In this document: positions 1,777-37,543 of the stretch, piece after piece | Layout of the letters: each line of letters opens with the position of its first letter | Numbering within the stretch: position 1 is the stretch's first letter | Assembly: GCA_027624955.1 (NCBI GenBank) | Contig: JAQBTG010000039.1 | Location: forward strand, 1 to 37,543 | DNA length: 37,543 bases | Direction: 5' to 3' | From: Pseudomonadota bacterium | GTDB lineage: Bacteria > Pseudomonadota > Alphaproteobacteria > UBA828 | Notes under the pieces: model-generated | What the model was told of the DNA's origin: nothing | The model's database searches: none | The model's input: the letters and a program-made list of their open reading frames with translations, nothing else | Translations under genes and position numbers: made by a program

Positions 1777-3659
1777 GCTGGGAACCCAGCTTTTTCCATG
1801 CCTTCGGCATAATGCGCTCGGTCTTCCTCACGCTCCAGATTTTTGCTCTTCATGTGCATCGAGATGGTGAAATCCGGATAGCGCGCGAGAAAGAGCTTGG
1901 CTGTGGCTTCGGCTTTTTGGGTCTGACCGGCCTGCGCGTAGCTCATTGCCAAGAGCCGTTGTGCAAATGACAACCCCTCGACGTCCTGTAATATCTCGAG
2001 CGCCTCGTCATAGCGTTTGTCGGCATAGAGCGCACTGCCGTAAACAGCTTTGTGCCAATTGGTGTTACGGGTGCTGAGACCACGCGCGCGCTCAATCAAT
2101 TTGAGGGCTTCGGCGATTTCACCTTGGCCGAGTTTGACGTCGGCCAGAAACATATAGGTGTCAATATCGTTAGGATTTAGCGCGATCGCACGATTCATCG
2201 AGACGATGGATTGTTTGGCGTCGCCGCGCGCGCGCTGCACATTGCCTTGAATTAGCCAGGCAGAATGGGAGGCCGGGTTCACCTTCACCGCCTTTGCCGC
2301 ATATTCCTGCGCCTTATCCAACGCTTTCTCCGGCGCGTCGCCCCAATTTTCGAATTTCTCTATCAAATAGGTCCAGGCGAGACCGGAATAGGCGCGGGCA
2401 TAATCCGGATCCAACTCGATAGCTTGCTCGTAAAGCCGGCGCGCCTCGACATTGTCGACCTCGTTGAGTTTTGCCCATTTCTCGCGCGCGCTCAGAACCG
2501 CATCATAAGCCTGGAGATTTTCACTGCGCTCGGAATTGCGCACGCGCTTACGCTCGCTTTCCTCCAGGGTGGGCGCAAGCATCGCCACGATGCGCTGGGT
2601 GACTTCATCCTGGACGGCGAAGAGATCGTCCATGTCGCGGTCGTAGCGCTCGGCCCAGAGATGCTTGTCGCTGGCGGCTTCGATCAACTGCGCGGTGATG
2701 CGCACCCGATTGCCAGCCTTACGCACGCTGCCTTCCAACACATAGCGCACACCCAGCTCTTCACCGACTTGGCGCATATTGGTGGCCTTGCCTTTGTAGG
2801 TGAAGCTGGAATTGCGCGCGACCACGCGGAGTTCCTGAAAGCGCGAGAGTTCGGTGATCAAATCCTCGGCCAGGCCATCGGCGAAATAATCCTGCTCCGG
2901 GTCGCCGCCCATATTCTCGAACGGCAGCACCGCGATGGAGGGCAGCTGGGTCGGCACGCGTTCGCGCGGCGCCACCGGCACAGCTTCCGGCTCTTCCGAT
3001 CCTTCCGCCGCCGCGGTGATAAGAGTATAAACCGGCACGGGCTTGGCGATATTCTTGACCGTTTTCTCGCCTTCAAAACGGAATTTTCCTGCGAATTTGC
3101 CTTCGACATGTTGGTGGACGGCGGCGGACAGCGCGATGCCGCCCGGCGCCGCCAAGCTCTCCAGGCGCGCCGCGACATTAATTCCGTCGCCGAGCAGATT
3201 ATCGCCATCTACCAGAACGTCGCCGAGATGAACGCCGATGCGAAACTGCATCCGCCGTTCGGGCGGCAAATCACCGTTCCGCGCCAAGACCTCGACCTGT
3301 ATCTTGTCGGCGCAGCGCACCGCCTCGACCGGGCTGGAGAATTCGGCGACGATGCTGTCGCCGGCGGTATTGAAAATCCGCCCGTCATGGGCAGCGACCA
3401 AGCGGTCAAAGACGCCGCGATAGACGCCGAGCGTACCTGCGGTAGCCTCTTCATCTTCGCCCATAAGCCGGCTGTATCCGACCACATCGGCAGCCAGAAT
3501 CGTCGCCAGTTTTCGCTTTATCTGCAATTTTTGGTCCACAGGCTGGTTCAGGGGCTGGTTCAGGGGCTGGTTCAGGGGCTGTTTTAGCGGCTGGTTAACG
3601 GTCTGATCCACTGTCTGATCCGAGGGCGCGGGACATCGTCTTGTAGGGCTATCTAGCAT
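1773..3659 (-). CDS. Class III adenylate/guanylate cyclase-like protein with TolB-like domain and TPRs
   Basis: The 628-residue protein has, in order: a repetitive N-terminus (about 15-43, QPLN repeats), a class III nucleotide cyclase domain (about 49-215), a TolB/FlgO-like segment starting SIAVLPFENM (about 241-360), and TPR helices to the end. Metal-binding aspartates are Asp58 (AADVVGYS) and Asp101 (AGDS); Asn161 and Arg165 (NVAARLE) fit the transition-state residues. The usual purine-selecting lysine two residues before Gly-Asp is Asn97 (NTAGDS), as in a large alphaproteobacterial subfamily, so activity and substrate are uncertain. No transmembrane segment is obvious. The ATG at 3659 has an in-frame stop upstream but no clear ribosome-binding site. 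Confidence 0.88.
   Translation of the reverse strand: MLDSPTRRCPAPSDQTVDQTVNQPLKQPLNQPLNQPLNQPVDQKLQIKRKLATILAADVVGYSRLMGEDEEATAGTLGVYRGVFDRLVAAHDGRIFNTAGDSIVAEFSSPVEAVRCADKIQVEVLARNGDLPPERRMQFRIGVHLGDVLVDGDNLLGDGINVAARLESLAAPGGIALSAAVHQHVEGKFAGKFRFEGEKTVKNIAKPVPVYTLITAAAEGSEEPEAVPVAPRERVPTQLPSIAVLPFENMGGDPEQDYFADGLAEDLITELSRFQELRVVARNSSFTYKGKATNMRQVGEELGVRYVLEGSVRKAGNRVRITAQLIEAASDKHLWAERYDRDMDDLFAVQDEVTQRIVAMLAPTLEESERKRVRNSERSENLQAYDAVLSAREKWAKLNEVDNVEARRLYEQAIELDPDYARAYSGLAWTYLIEKFENWGDAPEKALDKAQEYAAKAVKVNPASHSAWLIQGNVQRARGDAKQSIVSMNRAIALNPNDIDTYMFLADVKLGQGEIAEALKLIERARGLSTRNTNWHKAVYGSALYADKRYDEALEILQDVEGLSFAQRLLAMSYAQAGQTQKAEATAKLFLARYPDFTISMHMKSKNLEREEDRAHYAEGMEKAGFPA
3541..3624 (-). 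repeat. 12-bp tandem repeat coding for QPLN units
   Basis: GGCTGGTTCAGG is repeated exactly three times (3541-3576), followed by degenerate units to about 3624. The period is 12 bp, so the frame is kept and each unit adds four residues (Gln-Pro-Leu-Asn) to the N-terminus of the cyclase-like protein. Copy number is likely to vary between strains by slippage. Confidence 0.9.
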
Positions 3660-4214: not shown

Positions 4215-5393
4215 GTGGTAGCGCCTTTTAGGGGACTTATCCTTGTCTCGGCGGTCGCATTTTTTATTGCAGGCTGTTCTTTTACCGAGGATGCATTGTG
4301 GCCGTCTCTGACCGGGGAATCACCGGCAGGTTCTGGTGAGCAGATCGTCATCGCGGCGTCGCAAGAAGAAATGCGCGACCAGGCGGTGTATGGCGATTCA
4401 TCGTCGGCGGGCGGCACACGTCCGATTTCCCAGGTTTCCTATGAACCTGAACGCGCGCTCAATGCGAGCTCGCCGACCGGAACATTCGTCGGCGCCAAGG
4501 TTGCGCAGCAGCGCTCCGAACTCGAAAATCTCAAATCCTCGGTCAACAGCCGGCGCATTCAATTCGAACAAGTCCGCAATACCGCGCGGCAAAATTCGCA
4601 AGGCTATTTCGCGACAATTGCCGCCGTCACGGCGCGTTTGCGCATCGGCACCACGCCGGGCAACCCGGTGCTGGTCAGCCAGTGGAACGCGGCGCAGAGC
4701 GAGCTTGACCGTATCCTCACCGACATTGCCGCGCTGAACACACTCGGCAATCAGGTCGCCGCCGATTCGGCAATGTCGAGCTATCTGCTCGATTCTGTAC
4801 GCGCCACCTATGGCCTGCAGGGCGCGGTCGATGAAGATCATCGCCAGCTGTCGCTGATCGAGGACGAGGTCAACCGCAATGTGGTGCTGATCGATCGCCT
4901 GTTGGGCATGCTGCGCGAAACCATCGGGCGCTACACGAATTATGTGAATTCCGAGCGCCACAACCTCAGCACCTTGGCGCTGGCGATCAAAAATGGTGAA
5001 TATCTCGGCCCGAGCCTGTCCAACCGCAACGAGGATTATTCGAACGGACCTGTGCGGACCGCCGCTGTCGAGCCGCAAAGCCTGGTCGAAGAGCGCCGCC
5101 CGCTGGTGGTGATCCGCTTTGATCGTACCAATGTGGAATTTAGGCAGGCGCTTTATGCTGCCATTTCGACCGCCCTCGAGCGCCGCCCGCAAAGCACTTT
5201 CGACCTTGTCGCGGTGGCGCCCAATTTAGGTAGCCCGGCCGATGTGGCGTTGGCCACCAATGCCTCCAAGCGCCATGCGGAAACTGTGCTTCAAGCGCTT
5301 GGCGAAATGGGACTGCCGAGCAACCGGGTGACACTCTCTTCGACCACCAGCCCGGGCGTGCAGACCAACGAAGTTCATATCTACGTCCGTTAA
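4215..5393 (+). CDS. Lipoprotein with coiled-coil region and OmpA-like C-terminal domain
   Basis: The 392-residue protein begins at a GTG behind a weak GAGAGTGGG. A hydrophobic leader ends in a lipobox IAGC (Cys21), so it is probably a lipid-anchored envelope protein. The middle (about 95-240) is helical and Gln/Asn/Arg-rich, likely coiled coil. The last 100 residues resemble a degenerate OmpA-like fold: a beta-strand VVIRFDR, a helix with ASKRHAETVLQALGEMG, an arginine at the peptidoglycan-contact position (NRVTLSS) and a terminal strand NEVHIYVR. A role in anchoring outer membrane to wall is inferred. The gene is immediately followed by ggt with no spacer. Confidence 0.75.
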   Translation: MVAPFRGLILVSAVAFFIAGCSFTEDALWPSLTGESPAGSGEQIVIAASQEEMRDQAVYGDSSSAGGTRPISQVSYEPERALNASSPTGTFVGAKVAQQRSELENLKSSVNSRRIQFEQVRNTARQNSQGYFATIAAVTARLRIGTTPGNPVLVSQWNAAQSELDRILTDIAALNTLGNQVAADSAMSSYLLDSVRATYGLQGAVDEDHRQLSLIEDEVNRNVVLIDRLLGMLRETIGRYTNYVNSERHNLSTLALAIKNGEYLGPSLSNRNEDYSNGPVRTAAVEPQSLVEERRPLVVIRFDRTNVEFRQALYAAISTALERRPQSTFDLVAVAPNLGSPADVALATNASKRHAETVLQALGEMGLPSNRVTLSSTTSPGVQTNEVHIYVR

Positions 5394-32686: not shown

Positions 32687-33751
32687 ATGGCATCAACGTC
32701 TAAATCCACAGACCGGGATACCGACCAGAGTACCGCCCGGGACGCCCACCGCGAGCGCTTGATGCTACCCAATTATGCCGATGTGTGTGCTGCGGCCGAG
32801 CGCCTAGCAGGCAGCGCAGTGCGCACGCCACTGCTCGAATCAATCTGGCTGAACGAGCATATCGGCGGGCGCCTTCTGATCAAGGCCGAGCCATTGCAGC
32901 GCACCGGCTCGTTCAAATTCCGCGGCGCCTATAATTGCATTAGCCAACTCGACCGCGCCGCCCGGGCGCAAGGAGTGGTCGCCTATTCCTCCGGCAATCA
33001 TGCGCAAGCGGTGGCGGCGGCAGCGCACATGCTCGGCGCGCCGGCGACCATCGTTATGCCGAACAATGCGCCGGCGGTGAAAGTCGCCGGGACAAAACGC
33101 TACGGCGCTGAAATCGTTAGCTATGATCGCGCGACGGAAGATCGCGGAGCATTGGCGGAGGGCCTGGCGCGCGACAAGGGCGCGACCCTTGTCCGGCCCT
33201 ATGAAAATAATCACGTCATTGCTGGCCAGGGCACGGTTGGCCTTGAAATCGCCGCCGAGTGCCGGGTGCGCAATATCGCCCCCGATTTTGTGGTGGTACC
33301 GGCGGGCGGCGGCGGCCTGATGGCCGGTTGCGCACTGGCGCTCAGCGCCGAGTTGCCGGATACCGCGCTCTACACCGCTGAACCCGCGGACTATGACGAT
33401 CACGCGCGCTCGTTTGCAGCCGGCACGCGCCAACGGGTGCACGATATGACCGTCGCTACCCTTTGCGATGCGTTGCTACCGGAGGAGCCGGGCGCGCGCA
33501 CGTTCGCCATCAATTCAAGCCGCGTCGCCGGCGGCGTGACGGCAGATGACGGCGCGGTTCTCAGCGCCATGGCGGCGGCCTTCCACCATCTCAAGCTGGT
33601 GATCGAACCGGGCGGCGCGGCGGCGCTGGCGGCGGTTCTGAACGGCGCCTTGGCGACAGCCGGCAAGACCGTCGTTGTGGTCGCCTCCGGCGGCAATGTC
33701 GATCCCGATGTTTTCCGCACAGCGCTCGAGAGCGGCACCGGAAGTGTCTAG
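32687..33751 (+). CDS. Threonine/serine dehydratase family (PLP-dependent)
   Basis: The protein of about 354 residues has fold-type II PLP enzyme features: the PLP lysine Lys77 in TGSFKFRGA, the substrate loop SSGNHAQ, and the phosphate-binding glycine loop GGGGLMAG. It lacks the C-terminal ACT-like regulatory domain of biosynthetic IlvA, so it is a catabolic threonine dehydratase, serine racemase or relative. The start is uncertain: family members usually begin at MLPNYADV (ATG 32762), while 32687 has GGGG 6 bp upstream and adds a hydrophilic 25-residue lead; GTG 32669 and ATG 32672 are also open. It overlaps the mlaA start by 8 bp. Confidence 0.88.
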   Translation: MASTSKSTDRDTDQSTARDAHRERLMLPNYADVCAAAERLAGSAVRTPLLESIWLNEHIGGRLLIKAEPLQRTGSFKFRGAYNCISQLDRAARAQGVVAYSSGNHAQAVAAAAHMLGAPATIVMPNNAPAVKVAGTKRYGAEIVSYDRATEDRGALAEGLARDKGATLVRPYENNHVIAGQGTVGLEIAAECRVRNIAPDFVVVPAGGGGLMAGCALALSAELPDTALYTAEPADYDDHARSFAAGTRQRVHDMTVATLCDALLPEEPGARTFAINSSRVAGGVTADDGAVLSAMAAAFHHLKLVIEPGGAAALAAVLNGALATAGKTVVVVASGGNVDPDVFRTALESGTGSV

Positions 33752-34841
33752 ACTATTCGTCACGCTGTTCGCCCTGGCCGCGCTGTGCCTGGTGCCGGTG
33801 ATTGGTGCCATGGCGCAAGCGCTGCCGCCGGAACTGGCCACGCGCATTGGCGCCGCCGCCGAACAGGGACGGCACCACCAAGCATCGCTCAGCGACATCA
33901 TCGACGAGCGCCGGCAAATCGCCAATCGGCAACTGGAAACGGTGGTGGTATCGGCGATCGCTGAACGGCCGGAACTGTTTCAAGCGATCATGCGAGAAGC
34001 CTATCTTCAGGCGCCCGAATCGCATACCAATCTGAACTTTACCGTGATCAGCATGTTTCCGGGCTTTGCCGGCGTGTCGCAGGATCTGTCCGGCGCCGCG
34101 CCGCGCCGGGCCGAACCGGAGGCGGCGCAATTGGTCGCGCCACATGATGCGCGGGCGCCCGACATGCTGCGCGTCGCGACACCCGGCGACCGCCCCGCGA
34201 ACTGGCCGATATTGCCGAAAGAAGGCGGGATCGACGGCTATGCCGATAAAGATCCGCTCGAAGGCCTCAATCGGGTCTTCTTCTATGCCAACGGCGCGCT
34301 GGATTTTATCATCTTCGAGCCGCTGGCGCGTGGCTATCGATTCGTGACGCCGGACGCCGCGCAGGACGCCCTCAGCCGCGCCTTCGACAACCTCGCATCG
34401 CCAATTATTTTCGCCAACGACCTGCTGCAATTGCGCTTCCACCGCGCGGCAACGACCTTGTCGCGGTTCGCCGTCAACAGCACCGTCGGCCTGTTGGGAT
34501 TGTTTGACGTCGCAGCGGAGTTGGGACTGGAGCCGCATGACGCCGATTTTGGCCAGACCCTCTACACCTACGGTGTCGGCGACGGCATCTATTTGGTTCT
34601 GCCGCTATTTGGCCCGACGACGGCGCGCGATGCGGTCGGCCTCGGAGTCGACAGCCTGTTCGACCCGCGTAGCTGGCTCTTGGGCTCGACCGAGCGCCTG
34701 GCGCTCTATGCCGGCGAAGGCGTGGTGCGCCGCGAGGAATTAATCGATGCGGTCGATTATCTGGTCGAAAACGCCGAGAGCAATTACAACGCGGTGCGCG
34801 CCTGGACGTATCAGCAGCGCGAGGCCGAATTGCGCCAGTAA
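33744..34841 (+). CDS. mlaA: MlaA/VacJ family protein with extra N-terminal domain
   Basis: About 365 residues. MlaA sits in the outer membrane and removes misplaced phospholipids through the Mla pathway. The MlaA domain (about 169-350) starts at the diagnostic DPLEGLNRVFFYANGALD and includes GDGIYLVLPLFGPTTARDAVG. Two things are odd. A region of about 140 residues precedes it, including a helix-like VVVSAIAERPELFQAIMREA segment, and the signal peptide ends AMA-QA with no lipobox, although MlaA is normally a lipoprotein. The GTG at 33744 overlaps the dehydratase end by 8 bp. No other mla genes are in the window. Confidence 0.88.
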   Translation: MSRLFVTLFALAALCLVPVIGAMAQALPPELATRIGAAAEQGRHHQASLSDIIDERRQIANRQLETVVVSAIAERPELFQAIMREAYLQAPESHTNLNFTVISMFPGFAGVSQDLSGAAPRRAEPEAAQLVAPHDARAPDMLRVATPGDRPANWPILPKEGGIDGYADKDPLEGLNRVFFYANGALDFIIFEPLARGYRFVTPDAAQDALSRAFDNLASPIIFANDLLQLRFHRAATTLSRFAVNSTVGLLGLFDVAAELGLEPHDADFGQTLYTYGVGDGIYLVLPLFGPTTARDAVGLGVDSLFDPRSWLLGSTERLALYAGEGVVRREELIDAVDYLVENAESNYNAVRAWTYQQREAELRQ

Positions 34842-34845
34842 CGCT

Positions 34846-34980
34846 CTAGGTTACCGACTCATTAAATCTTAGCCATATTCGCACTGAAGCGAGCTTGACG
34901 GAAGCGAGATAGGTGCCGTCGCGCTCGTCCTAGCCTGTGGCTACGGCTCGGAAATGTTTGAGCTTGTTGAAGAAACGCTG
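34846..34980 (-). pseudogene. IS5-family transposase remnant (C-terminus)
   Basis: On the minus strand 45 codons read QRFFNKLKHFRAVATG, a TAG, then DERDGTYLASVKLASVRIWL and RFNESVT with a final TAG. This is the characteristic C-terminal end of IS5-type DDE transposases (ERFFNKLKHFRRIATRYD... in intact copies). The in-frame TAG falls where the family has Tyr of RYD. The N-terminal part is missing; the sequence from 34981 to 35097 shows nothing recognisable. The remnant begins 5 bp after the mlaA stop. Confidence 0.82.
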
Positions 34981-35097
34981 CGACAGCAGTGCGCTGTTTG
35001 TAAAGCCAATGAAAGCGATGCGCTCACAGCCTGTCGACCCTTACCGGACGTCGTGGGCGTTGCTAGACACCACTGCTTGTCCCCCACCAAGATATTC

Positions 35098-35346
35098 TCA
35101 ACCCTTTGTAATGGCTGCCTCTAAGGCCAGCTTAGCCATGCAAAGTTTGTAACAATGATCAAACTCTGGGTGCGCAAGGCAATCATCCCACTCAAAGATT
35201 TTCGCTTTGACCAAAGAATCGGGACGTCCCAAACCCATGGGGCGAAACTCCAAGCTAAAATCTTTGCCTTCAATTTGTTGATTGGGTTCGAAATACAGCC
35301 TGTCGTGGAACCTTGTTCCGTAGTCGGCCGTGTGTTCGGAGGTCAT
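35098..35346 (-). CDS. Small hypothetical protein in arsenic island
   Basis: The 82-residue frame starts at an ATG with AGGA about 8 bp upstream and lies 36 bp downstream of the arsenite exporter gene on the same strand. It is charged and soluble, with three acidic/aromatic stretches and two cysteines near the end (DHCYKLCMAK). I do not recognise a family. Base use is AT-richer than the flanking core genes, like the exporter's. It may be a real co-transcribed cargo gene or a chance frame. Confidence 0.5.
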   Translation of the reverse strand: MTSEHTADYGTRFHDRLYFEPNQQIEGKDFSLEFRPMGLGRPDSLVKAKIFEWDDCLAHPEFDHCYKLCMAKLALEAAITKG

Positions 35347-35382
35347 ATCACCTGTCCTACGAATTGCCTTCTTGGGTTTTCA

Positions 35383-36465
35383 CTACGCGGCTGTAAACCA
35401 GCCGCGCGTTCGGTTTGCGAAAGCAACAAGAGACAACATAACTGGAACTTCGACGAGCACACCTACCACGGTCGTCAGAGCAGCCCCCGAATTTAAGCCG
35501 AATAAGCCAATTGCAACCGCAACAGCCAGTTCAAAGAAATTCGATGTTCCAATAAGGGCGCACGGTGCTGCAACGTTGAACGGCACCCGCCACAAATAGG
35601 CCGCACCATAAGCAAGTGCGAAAATGCCGTAGGATTGAATCAGCAGCGGCACGGCGATCAACGCGATTAATGAGGGGCTTTCGAGGATTACGTGACCTTG
35701 GAAGCCAAAGAGCAGAACCACTGTTGCGAGAAGTGCGACAACAGAAAACGGTTTGATAGCACTTGTGAACCGCAATACCGCGGCTTCGCCGCTTCCCCTG
35801 TTCTTGGCCCGGCTCACCAACCATGTTCGGGTGGCCGCTCCAGCGACAAGTGGAATCACGACATATAGACCAACAGATAAAATCAGCGTCTGCCACGGAA
35901 CATCGATATCGGTAACACCGAGCAGCAAGGCGACAATCGGCGCAAAGGCGAAAACCATGATGAGGTCGTTCAGCGACACTTGCACAAGTGTGTAAGTTGC
36001 GTCGCCGCGCGTCATTTGCGACCACACAAACACCATCGCCGTGCAGGGGGCTGCGCCAAGTAGAATGAGGCCGGCAATGTACTGTTGTGCATCGGCAGGA
36101 GAGATTAAGTTGGCGAACAGGATCTCAAAAAACAGGATGCCGAGGCCAACCATCGTGAACGGCTTTATCAGCCAGTTCACGATAATAGTAATGAGCAGTC
36201 CCTTTGGCCGGTCGCCGATATGACGAAGGCTGGAAAAATCCACATTCACCATCATCGGGTAGACCATTCCCCAAATGAGGACGGCGACGATTAAATTAAC
36301 CGATGCGAATTCCAGACCAGCGAGGACCTGAAAAAGATCAGGCAGCACTGTTCCGAGGCCGACCCCTGCAACGATGCACAAGGCGACCCATACCGATAGC
36401 CATTTCCCGAAGAAACCAATAACGCCAGGAGAGATTGTCGTTGGCGCAGCCTTTTCACGATTCAT
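35383..36465 (-). CDS. Arsenite efflux transporter ACR3
   Basis: The 360-residue inner-membrane protein has about ten transmembrane segments and belongs to the bile/arsenite/riboflavin transporter superfamily. The essential cysteine of ACR3 exporters is present as Cys141 in [15 protein letters not shown], with the paired conserved region [19 protein letters not shown]. It extrudes arsenite from the cell. The ATG at 36465 gives the usual length; the frame stays open further upstream but without homology. An aquaporin remnant, a typical arsenic-operon partner, lies just upstream; no arsR or arsC is seen. Confidence 0.93.
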
Positions 36466-36506
36466 ACTAACGCCAACGGCCTCCCTATCTTGGGCCTGTT
36501 GCTCAA

Positions 36507-36631
36507 CTATGGCTGGAAAATGGTGAATGGCAACAGTCCACCCGCCAGCCGCGCCGCCATGACGCAGCAACCGACTGAAGTGGCCAGTAGGATCGTTGTT
36601 CCGGAAAACTCGGCGACTAGTTTATGGGCAT
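36507..36631 (-). pseudogene. Aquaporin (MIP/AqpS-like) N-terminal remnant
   Basis: Minus-strand codons read [18 protein letters not shown] then [11 protein letters not shown], matching the first transmembrane helix of MIP channels of the arsenic-operon type. An ATG at 36631 reads M-P-I-N but is one base out of frame with LVAEF, so a single-base deletion has broken the start region. After LAGG the homology stops and a TAG follows at 36507-36509. The remainder of the channel (NPA motifs) is absent. It ends about 40 bp before the ACR3 start and begins 5 bp after the decarboxylase-like gene. Confidence 0.7.
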
Positions 36632-36636
36632 GTGAC

Positions 36637-37308
36637 CTAGAGCGGCCCGACGCCTCCGGGATAACAGAATGACGAACTCGGCGAATAGAAGCCGAAGGTG
36701 ATTTCCAGCGGATCGGCCGGGCGCAGCGCATAGCTCGAATGACCCGGTGCGAGAAATTCGAATGACAGCACTTCGAACGGCTCCACGATATCGCCGACAT
36801 AGGCGTAGCGCCCGCTTTCCATAATGCCGCCATTCTGGGTGATGTAGCGCAGATGGCCGCGAACTGATTCACCAATCGTTTCGGACACCCGCGCCTTGGT
36901 GCGGAACAGCAGCGTGCCGTCGCCCGCCTGTGTGGTTGCGGTGAGCACGTCGCCCGCGATCACCAATTCAGTGTTGCCGGCATCGGCGGGAATGCCGCGA
37001 TCAGCGGCGTAGGCGCGCATGCCGGGATTGGAATTGAAATAATGCGTCCAAAACCGGCCAGGCGTGCCGTCGTCAAGATCGAGCCCGTCGAGATCGAGGC
37101 CCATATAGGTGAGCGAATAGGCGCCGAAATGTGATGTCTGCGCATCGGTGTCGACGACATATTGGTTGATGTAGATGGCTTTGTTGGCGGCTGGCTTGAG
37201 GCCGGCGGGCAGCAGGGCGGCGCAGGCTGCGGGATCGGCCGGCACCCAGCAGAAATAGAGCATGCGGGCTTTGGTGATAAGTTGCGGCGGCAACAATTCC
37301 TGGGCCAT
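36637..37308 (-). CDS. Acetoacetate decarboxylase-like protein
   Basis: The 223-residue protein has the ADC-like fold pattern: MLYFCWVPADPAACAALLPAGLKP, then YINQYVVDTD and FGAYSLTYMGLDLDG, and a late LRPADPLEITFGFYSP. In true acetoacetate decarboxylase a catalytic lysine lies after a conserved Gly-x-Pro; the matching region here (GIPADAGNTEL, about 105-115) has no lysine, so a different chemistry is likely. The ATG at 37308 follows GGAGAG with 7-bp spacing. It lies 79 bp downstream of a putative short-chain acyl-CoA-sensing regulator on the same strand. Confidence 0.72.
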   Translation of the reverse strand: MAQELLPPQLITKARMLYFCWVPADPAACAALLPAGLKPAANKAIYINQYVVDTDAQTSHFGAYSLTYMGLDLDGLDLDDGTPGRFWTHYFNSNPGMRAYAADRGIPADAGNTELVIAGDVLTATTQAGDGTLLFRTKARVSETIGESVRGHLRYITQNGGIMESGRYAYVGDIVEPFEVLSFEFLAPGHSSYALRPADPLEITFGFYSPSSSFCYPGGVGPL

Positions 37309-37387
37309 GTTTTTTCTCTCCGGGTTGGATTGTGAAGCATTGTGGCTGGCGGCCATCATACGCCGTGCGGGCCGGCTGGGTGAAGGT

Positions 37388-37543
37388 TCAGGTAAAGAAA
37401 TATGGCGCCAGACCGAGATGGTTCTCATCGACCACCAAGCGGCGGTTGAGCGGCGGATAGGCGCGACGGTTGCATTCCAAACGGTCGCACAGACGACAAT
37501 TGACGCCGATCTTAAGCGCCGAATCAGGGTCCGCCGGTAGTTT
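37388..37543 (-). CDS. C-terminus of a short-chain acyl-CoA-sensing regulator (XRE/DUF2083 type), partial
   Basis: The last 51 codons of a gene that enters from beyond the right edge. The cysteine-rich segment GVNCRLCDRLECNRRAYPPL and the ending VDENHLGLAPYFF match the C-terminal domain of helix-turn-helix regulators of the RamB/ScfR type, which sense short-chain acyl-CoA in propionate and acetate metabolism. Only the C-terminus is seen, so the DNA-binding part is inferred. Its neighbour is the decarboxylase-like gene. Confidence 0.65.
   Translation of the reverse strand, partial: KLPADPDSALKIGVNCRLCDRLECNRRAYPPLNRRLVVDENHLGLAPYFFT

Follow-up and report, generated by a model that had tools for sequence, protein, structure and literature searches.

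Why does a piece of an AqpS-type aquaporin gene lie just upstream of an intact gene for the arsenite exporter ACR3? The two meet in a stretch of alphaproteobacterial DNA of 37,543 nucleotides (contig JAQBTG010000039.1 of assembly GCA_027624955.1; hereafter, the window). Bacteria remove arsenite either through a passive channel or with a pump, and in the class studied here both are rarely present in one genome. The sequence-only reading, made from the letters of the window, took the pair as the remains of an operon that had probably once held both a channel and an exporter, and placed a single-base break at the start of the channel gene.

A channel stub upstream of ACR3

The fragment is a minus-strand stub of 33 codons (36537..36635) that profile matches, shuffles and alignment assign to the N-terminal end of AqpS, in its first transmembrane helix. 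Its frame runs on into a tail, LLPFTIFQP followed by TAG (36507..36536, minus strand), whose translation has no AqpS match, as the profile match ends at 36537; the closing TAG, at 36507-36509, is the lower edge that the sequence-only reading had given the fragment. Scored against a profile of 19 aqpS genes (A2), the stub matched positions 5-37 with 28.1 bits and an E-value of 1.7e-6 among 24,864 frames, drawn from the window and 122 ACR3 loci. The best of 300 dinucleotide shuffles of the inserted segment that carries the stub scored 8.4 against A2, compared with 31.1 for the real insert. The A2 profile represents 19 of 28 aqpS loci found with the stub itself, with cut, broken and start-uncertain genes excluded. 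Because the A2 genes had been picked with the stub, we made another profile, from 13 aqpS genes that do not belong to the stub-fetched loci but were still found via A2, by whole length. This profile also matched the stub (25.2 bits, E 1.9e-5), and the best of 300 shuffles reached 9.3, versus 27.4 for the real insert. By sequence comparison, these results confirm the stub as a remnant of the first helix of an AqpS-type MIP channel, and the claim that such a helix can be read upstream of ACR3 is borne out.

A 43-residue stub query matched 172 of 385 genomes of the class at E-values up to 1, many of them weakly. Thirty loci were retrieved with it, namely the window itself, 28 first helices of one MIP subfamily (including L113, a broken gene, and L123, truncated by a contig end) and L124, which was rejected as a chance match. 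The subfamily is placed by L125, which is 57% identical over 218 residues to the annotated AqpS of Sinorhizobium meliloti. Aligned with that single protein, the stub had a local score of 47, a value that 2 of 2000 residue shuffles also reached. Pfam and NCBIfam searches of this very short piece returned no match. A PDB search returned five matches, all to aquaporin or GlpF chains, at E-values of 0.98-2.3 that are not significant, and tblastn against plasmids returned 13 records, none better than E 0.09; where the match falls, five carry a MIP or aquaporin annotation and others do not.

Homology to AqpS ends after the residues LAGG, at profile position 37 of 224, and the stub contains neither of the two NPA motifs nor the six transmembrane helices of an AqpS-type channel. 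We rejected an apparent continuation past LAGG in another frame, where VAI was matched by eye, as too few residues. Within the helix, the stub follows the subfamily pattern L-x-A-E-x-x-G-T ... G-S-G-[IVM]-M ... L-A-G-G except at GSG, which reads GCC, with the loss of S and G. GSG is invariant in all 19 aligned relatives and occurs in every one of 29 first-helix strings retrieved by a pattern search, and thus the piece looks decayed in any case. Its neighbours are a gene resembling acetoacetate decarboxylase (ADC-like) and ACR3, rather than arsR or arsC, the neighbours expected of an AqpS-type channel.

The start of the stub is where the proposed single-base break would lie. An ATG at 36631-36629 opens a four-codon frame, MPIN followed by TAG (36617..36631, minus strand), which is a candidate aqpS start judged by the start distances of relatives and is out of frame with the helix. 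No ATG, GTG or TTG in the stub frame was found between 36636 and the helix. As the end of the ADC-like gene, with its stop at 36637-36639, is common to the congeners, the inserted DNA begins at 36636, and there is room for no more than 16 inserted bases ahead of the codon for the conserved Leu (36620-36618). The nearest Met before this Leu lies 4 (three of 19) to 24 residues upstream in the 19 relatives, at 8-11 residues in 13 of them, so that the start of 16 of the 19 would not fit within 16 bases. Since these 16 start further upstream, the true start of the stub may be cut off. In so short a stretch, by our estimate, an ATG would be expected in either of the two frames that do not match the helix about once in eight times. 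Either the ATG is the old start, with its frame broken, or the old start may have been lost at the edge of the insert. An out-of-frame ATG is thus there as described; a single-base break is possible but not needed and is not established by these data.

In contrast to the stub, the predicted arsenite exporter ACR3 (35383..36465, minus strand; 360 residues) is intact, spanning positions 2-327 of the 327 of TIGR00832 with 386.7 bits against a cut-off of 282.8. Its dN is 0.087 and its dS 1.04 relative to L018; across L018, L021 and L019, dN is 0.086-0.111 and dS 1.04-1.82, the larger dS values being near saturation. The low dN relative to dS suggests that ACR3 has been under purifying selection. 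Its translation contains GAAPCTAM and NFFELAV, which may hold the conserved Cys and Glu of the ACR3 transport path. Between stub and ACR3 is a linker of 71 bases (36466..36536, minus strand) that overlaps the end of the stub frame; blastn-short against the ACR3 loci found nothing beyond 12-14 bases (best E 0.20). The linker holds a weak promoter-like site at 36533-36506 (9 of 12), one of two such sites in 34780-37400, where 1.1 are expected. Downstream of ACR3 is an 82-residue Cys-containing ORF (35098..35346, minus strand) without a Pfam or NCBIfam match. Among 190 other ACR3 loci, this ORF follows ACR3 in three (L018, L021 and L087); its relatives carry WDDCxxCxEFxHCYxxCxAKLxLE, and the window copy lacks the second Cys.

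An insertion between two convergent genes

Stub, linker, ACR3 and the small ORF all lie on a piece of about 1.8 kb (34842..36636, 1795 bases) that has been inserted between two resident genes that converge on it. Upstream on the minus strand is the ADC-like gene (36637..37308), which scores 18.7 bits against the Pfam ADC family, below the cut-off of 29.8, and is matched in 17 of 21 family genomes. On the plus strand, an MlaA lipoprotein gene (33747..34841, from a putative start; PF04333, 214.5 bits) is matched in all 21, paralogues included. The minus-strand order is therefore ADC-like gene, stub, ACR3, 82-residue ORF, with MlaA convergent on the plus strand. Counted with stop codons, the gap between the flanking genes is 12-62 bases in congeners G002-G005, 87-215 in six further family loci and 1801 here; these empty sites indicate that the piece moved here by insertion. 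Ten of the 20 other family genomes gave no gap value, four having no ADC-like match (G001, G009, G012, G015) and six having their best flank matches on different contigs (G006, G008, G011, G014, G018, G019). Two of the 21 family genomes carry ACR3. None of the five congeners does, but not all of these genomes are complete. The GC content of the insert is 0.527, compared with 0.602 for the rest of the window.

The two edges are exact inverses of each other. The left edge reads CGCTCTAGGT (34842..34851, plus strand) and the right edge ACCTAGAGCG (36635..36644, plus strand), the latter overlapping the native stop of the ADC-like gene. Since 34780-36720 contains eight exact inverted 10-mer pairs, this one included, it is notable only for lying at both edges; the repeat search did not list it. 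The edges might reflect the duplication of a CTAG target, at a palindromic site or spacer. The first 256 bases of the insert are single copy in the genome. Across the whole genome, an LMW-type arsC query gave no match, an empty result that by itself shows nothing, as the query was used without a positive control. One MIP gene is present elsewhere, but at a threshold of E 1e-30 it does not count as AqpS-type.

Channel and pump in ars operons

If channel and exporter had worked as a pair, intact pairs might be found in relatives. We surveyed 385 genomes of the class for aqpS (E 1e-30 or better) and ACR3 (E 1e-60 or better), with a limited number of candidates scored per genome. The channel was found in 104 genomes and the exporter in 99, 97 of these over the family cut-off. 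Only seven genomes carry both, where about 27 would be expected if the two were independent (Fisher p 3.5e-8, uncorrected for kinship). The two genes are on separate contigs in four of the seven and more than 300 kb apart in the other three, and none are adjacent; in one, G344, aqpS is partial.

We also scanned 190 other ACR3 loci with the AqpS profile (13 from relatives, 80 from genome contigs and 97 from the class survey, a set that leaves out the partial ACR3 matches in G356 and G064). They amount to 177 distinct loci by a 600-base core, and most of the flanks scanned measured 1.5-4 kb, with less at the ends of contigs. No intact aqpS was found, and a fragment was found in one locus, L028. 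Three other candidates were discarded: a match in L252 was noise (E 3.2), and seeming in-frame AqpS-ACR3 fusions in L043 and L051 were arsC DNA read in another frame, picked up with a query from L106 that ran into the end of arsC. In a published survey of 685 ars operons, all 18 MIP genes stood without another transporter, as far as the accessible part of that text goes (Yang et al., 2015; PMC4435449). The proposal that this operon once had both a channel and an exporter thus finds no parallel in the seven two-carrier genomes, in the 190 loci or in the 18 published cases available to us, and we do not uphold it. Among the titles and abstract openings listed in literature searches, none reports aqpS scars beside ACR3.

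What the two carriers do share is a neighbourhood. Of 30 aqpS loci (L154-L183), 23 have an arsR or arsC gene upstream, co-directional and no more than 1.5 kb away, as do 19 of 29 ACR3 loci (L184-L212). Among the others, arsC follows ACR3 in L208 and arsR is divergent in L157; our queries found neither gene in six aqpS and nine ACR3 loci. Gene order was inspected in eight plasmid records, one of them without annotation at that place. The annotated order is arsR-aqpS-arsC-arsH in Sinorhizobium meliloti and arsR-arsC-ACR3-arsH in two Acuticoccus plasmids. One plasmid reads arsR-arsC-arsC-aqpS-arsD-arsA, as does a second in which the regulator is named only as a helix-turn-helix protein; another has regulator-aqpS-arsC with arsH divergent, and one has aqpS among other enzymes with arsH. 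Relatives thus yielded aqpS beside ars genes and no intact aqpS-ACR3 operon, and the statement that AqpS-type channels work with arsenic genes is supported in the sense of their position in ars operons. In L283 (an Aquincola plasmid) and L286 (a Sphaerotilus plasmid), where the order is arsC-arsC-aqpS-arsD-arsA, the genes for the ArsA ATPase and the ArsD chaperone adjoin that for the channel, and no ArsB or ACR3 is annotated in the 7-kb stretch.

The fragment in L028, from a Kiloniellaceae metagenome-assembled genome, is the mirror image of the stub. There, an ArsR-type regulator, an LMW-type arsC and ACR3 are followed by a C-terminal aqpS remnant (5081-5293, plus strand) that starts no more than about 20 bases from the stop of ACR3. 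The remnant matches AqpS profile positions 171-220 (E 4.3e-19), exceeds the Pfam MIP cut-off and includes an NPA motif. What survives of aqpS in L028 is its 3' end, after ACR3, and in the window its 5' end, ahead of ACR3. A further broken aqpS, in L281 of genome G040 (2954-3319, minus strand), follows profile positions 2-60 and then turns into unrelated sequence, with no ACR3 in the 6 kb examined.

Origin of the junction

The most likely reading, to which we give a probability of about one half, is that ACR3 replaced an aqpS gene in an ars operon and left the 5' end of that gene behind as a scar, the present stub, and that the resulting piece was later inserted here. Such operons would hold a single arsenite carrier, the channel AqpS or the pump ACR3, in the vicinity of arsR and arsC. 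We infer an illegitimate join that attached ACR3, along with the small gene that follows it, behind the first helix of aqpS, followed by insertion, in the present lineage, of a piece beginning at the aqpS 5' end between the two convergent resident genes. The stub would now encode nothing useful; ACR3 is still intact and is probably transcribed by read-through from the ADC-like gene, which points the same way, or from a weak promoter nearby. As the carriers rarely share a genome but share an operon neighbourhood, displacement is the simplest account of a stub beside ACR3. Against it, a single other scar in 190 loci means that such swaps would rarely leave traces, and the lack of arsC or arsR beside the stub means that the operon slot itself is not visible here. 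No co-directional upstream arsR or arsC was found in ten of the 29 ACR3 and seven of the 30 aqpS loci, and the close ACR3 relative L021 has the end of an arsC upstream, recognized by eye, and no trace of aqpS.

The position of the stub at the very edge of the insert also counts against displacement, since the stub may have met ACR3 only during insertion. This would make stub and ACR3 pieces from different sources, joined by chance as the segment was assembled and inserted, and the stub the mark of a breakpoint only. The native stop codon of the ADC-like gene is indeed only a few bases from the beginning of the stub; the GC content of the stub, 0.600, is above that of the insert (0.527), though over 100 bases this difference is small; and the linker is unmatched in the ACR3 loci compared. 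A chance join, however, fails to explain why ACR3 should have met the gene for the alternative arsenite carrier found in ars operons, pointing the same way and 71 bases upstream, or why L028 shows the mirror case, and we regard it as possible but rather unlikely. We find it improbable that, along the lines of the sequence-only reading, a deletion removed most of aqpS from an operon that had both a working aqpS and ACR3, and that a one-base break arose near the start. The two genes are adjacent and co-directional, and the out-of-frame ATG is about where three of 19 relatives start, but the starts of the other 16 would fall outside the insert, and neither the 190 loci, the 385 genomes nor the consulted part of the published survey (none of 18; PMC4435449) offers an intact adjacent pair.

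Two further explanations carry little weight. The genome is a draft of 84 contigs and the junction DNA was found in none of 59 other genomes searched, as would be expected of an assembly chimera absent from the organism; yet both edges of the insert fall cleanly at the ends of resident genes and a double chimera is unlikely, which makes such an artefact very improbable. Less probable still is that the stub persists because it serves ACR3 as a leader peptide or regulatory element: it lies 5' of the gene, with one weak promoter-like site in the linker, but it has no start codon in its frame within the insert and has lost invariant residues.

Returning to displacement of aqpS by ACR3, the adjacency of stub and pump gene is no proof that both once worked together, and this corrects the tempting reading of such neighbours as a pair. 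More broadly, channel and pump may trade places through joins inside the aqpS frame that leave aqpS ends on either side of ACR3, a proposal for which we see roughly even odds. If it is true, such scars would reveal the direction of an otherwise silent transporter swap: a scar beside the other carrier would tell that the channel came first and the pump later in one lineage, with L028 as a second case.

Among known systems, the arsR-aqpS-arsC-arsH operon of S. meliloti encodes a first helix of the same type as that of the stub, which is by comparison only 33 codons long, without an NPA motif or an in-frame start, and is followed by ACR3 instead of arsC. Like ACR3 (ArsY) operons such as arsR-arsC-ACR3-arsH, the window has a complete ACR3 over the TIGR00832 cut-off, here without an adjoining arsR or arsC. 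In Salinispora tropica, according to the part of the report available to us, AqpS is fused to ArsC as a bifunctional channel-reductase (PMC6205960); there too a MIP channel is joined to another ars gene, in a single protein as reported, whereas in the window the stub is out of frame with ACR3.
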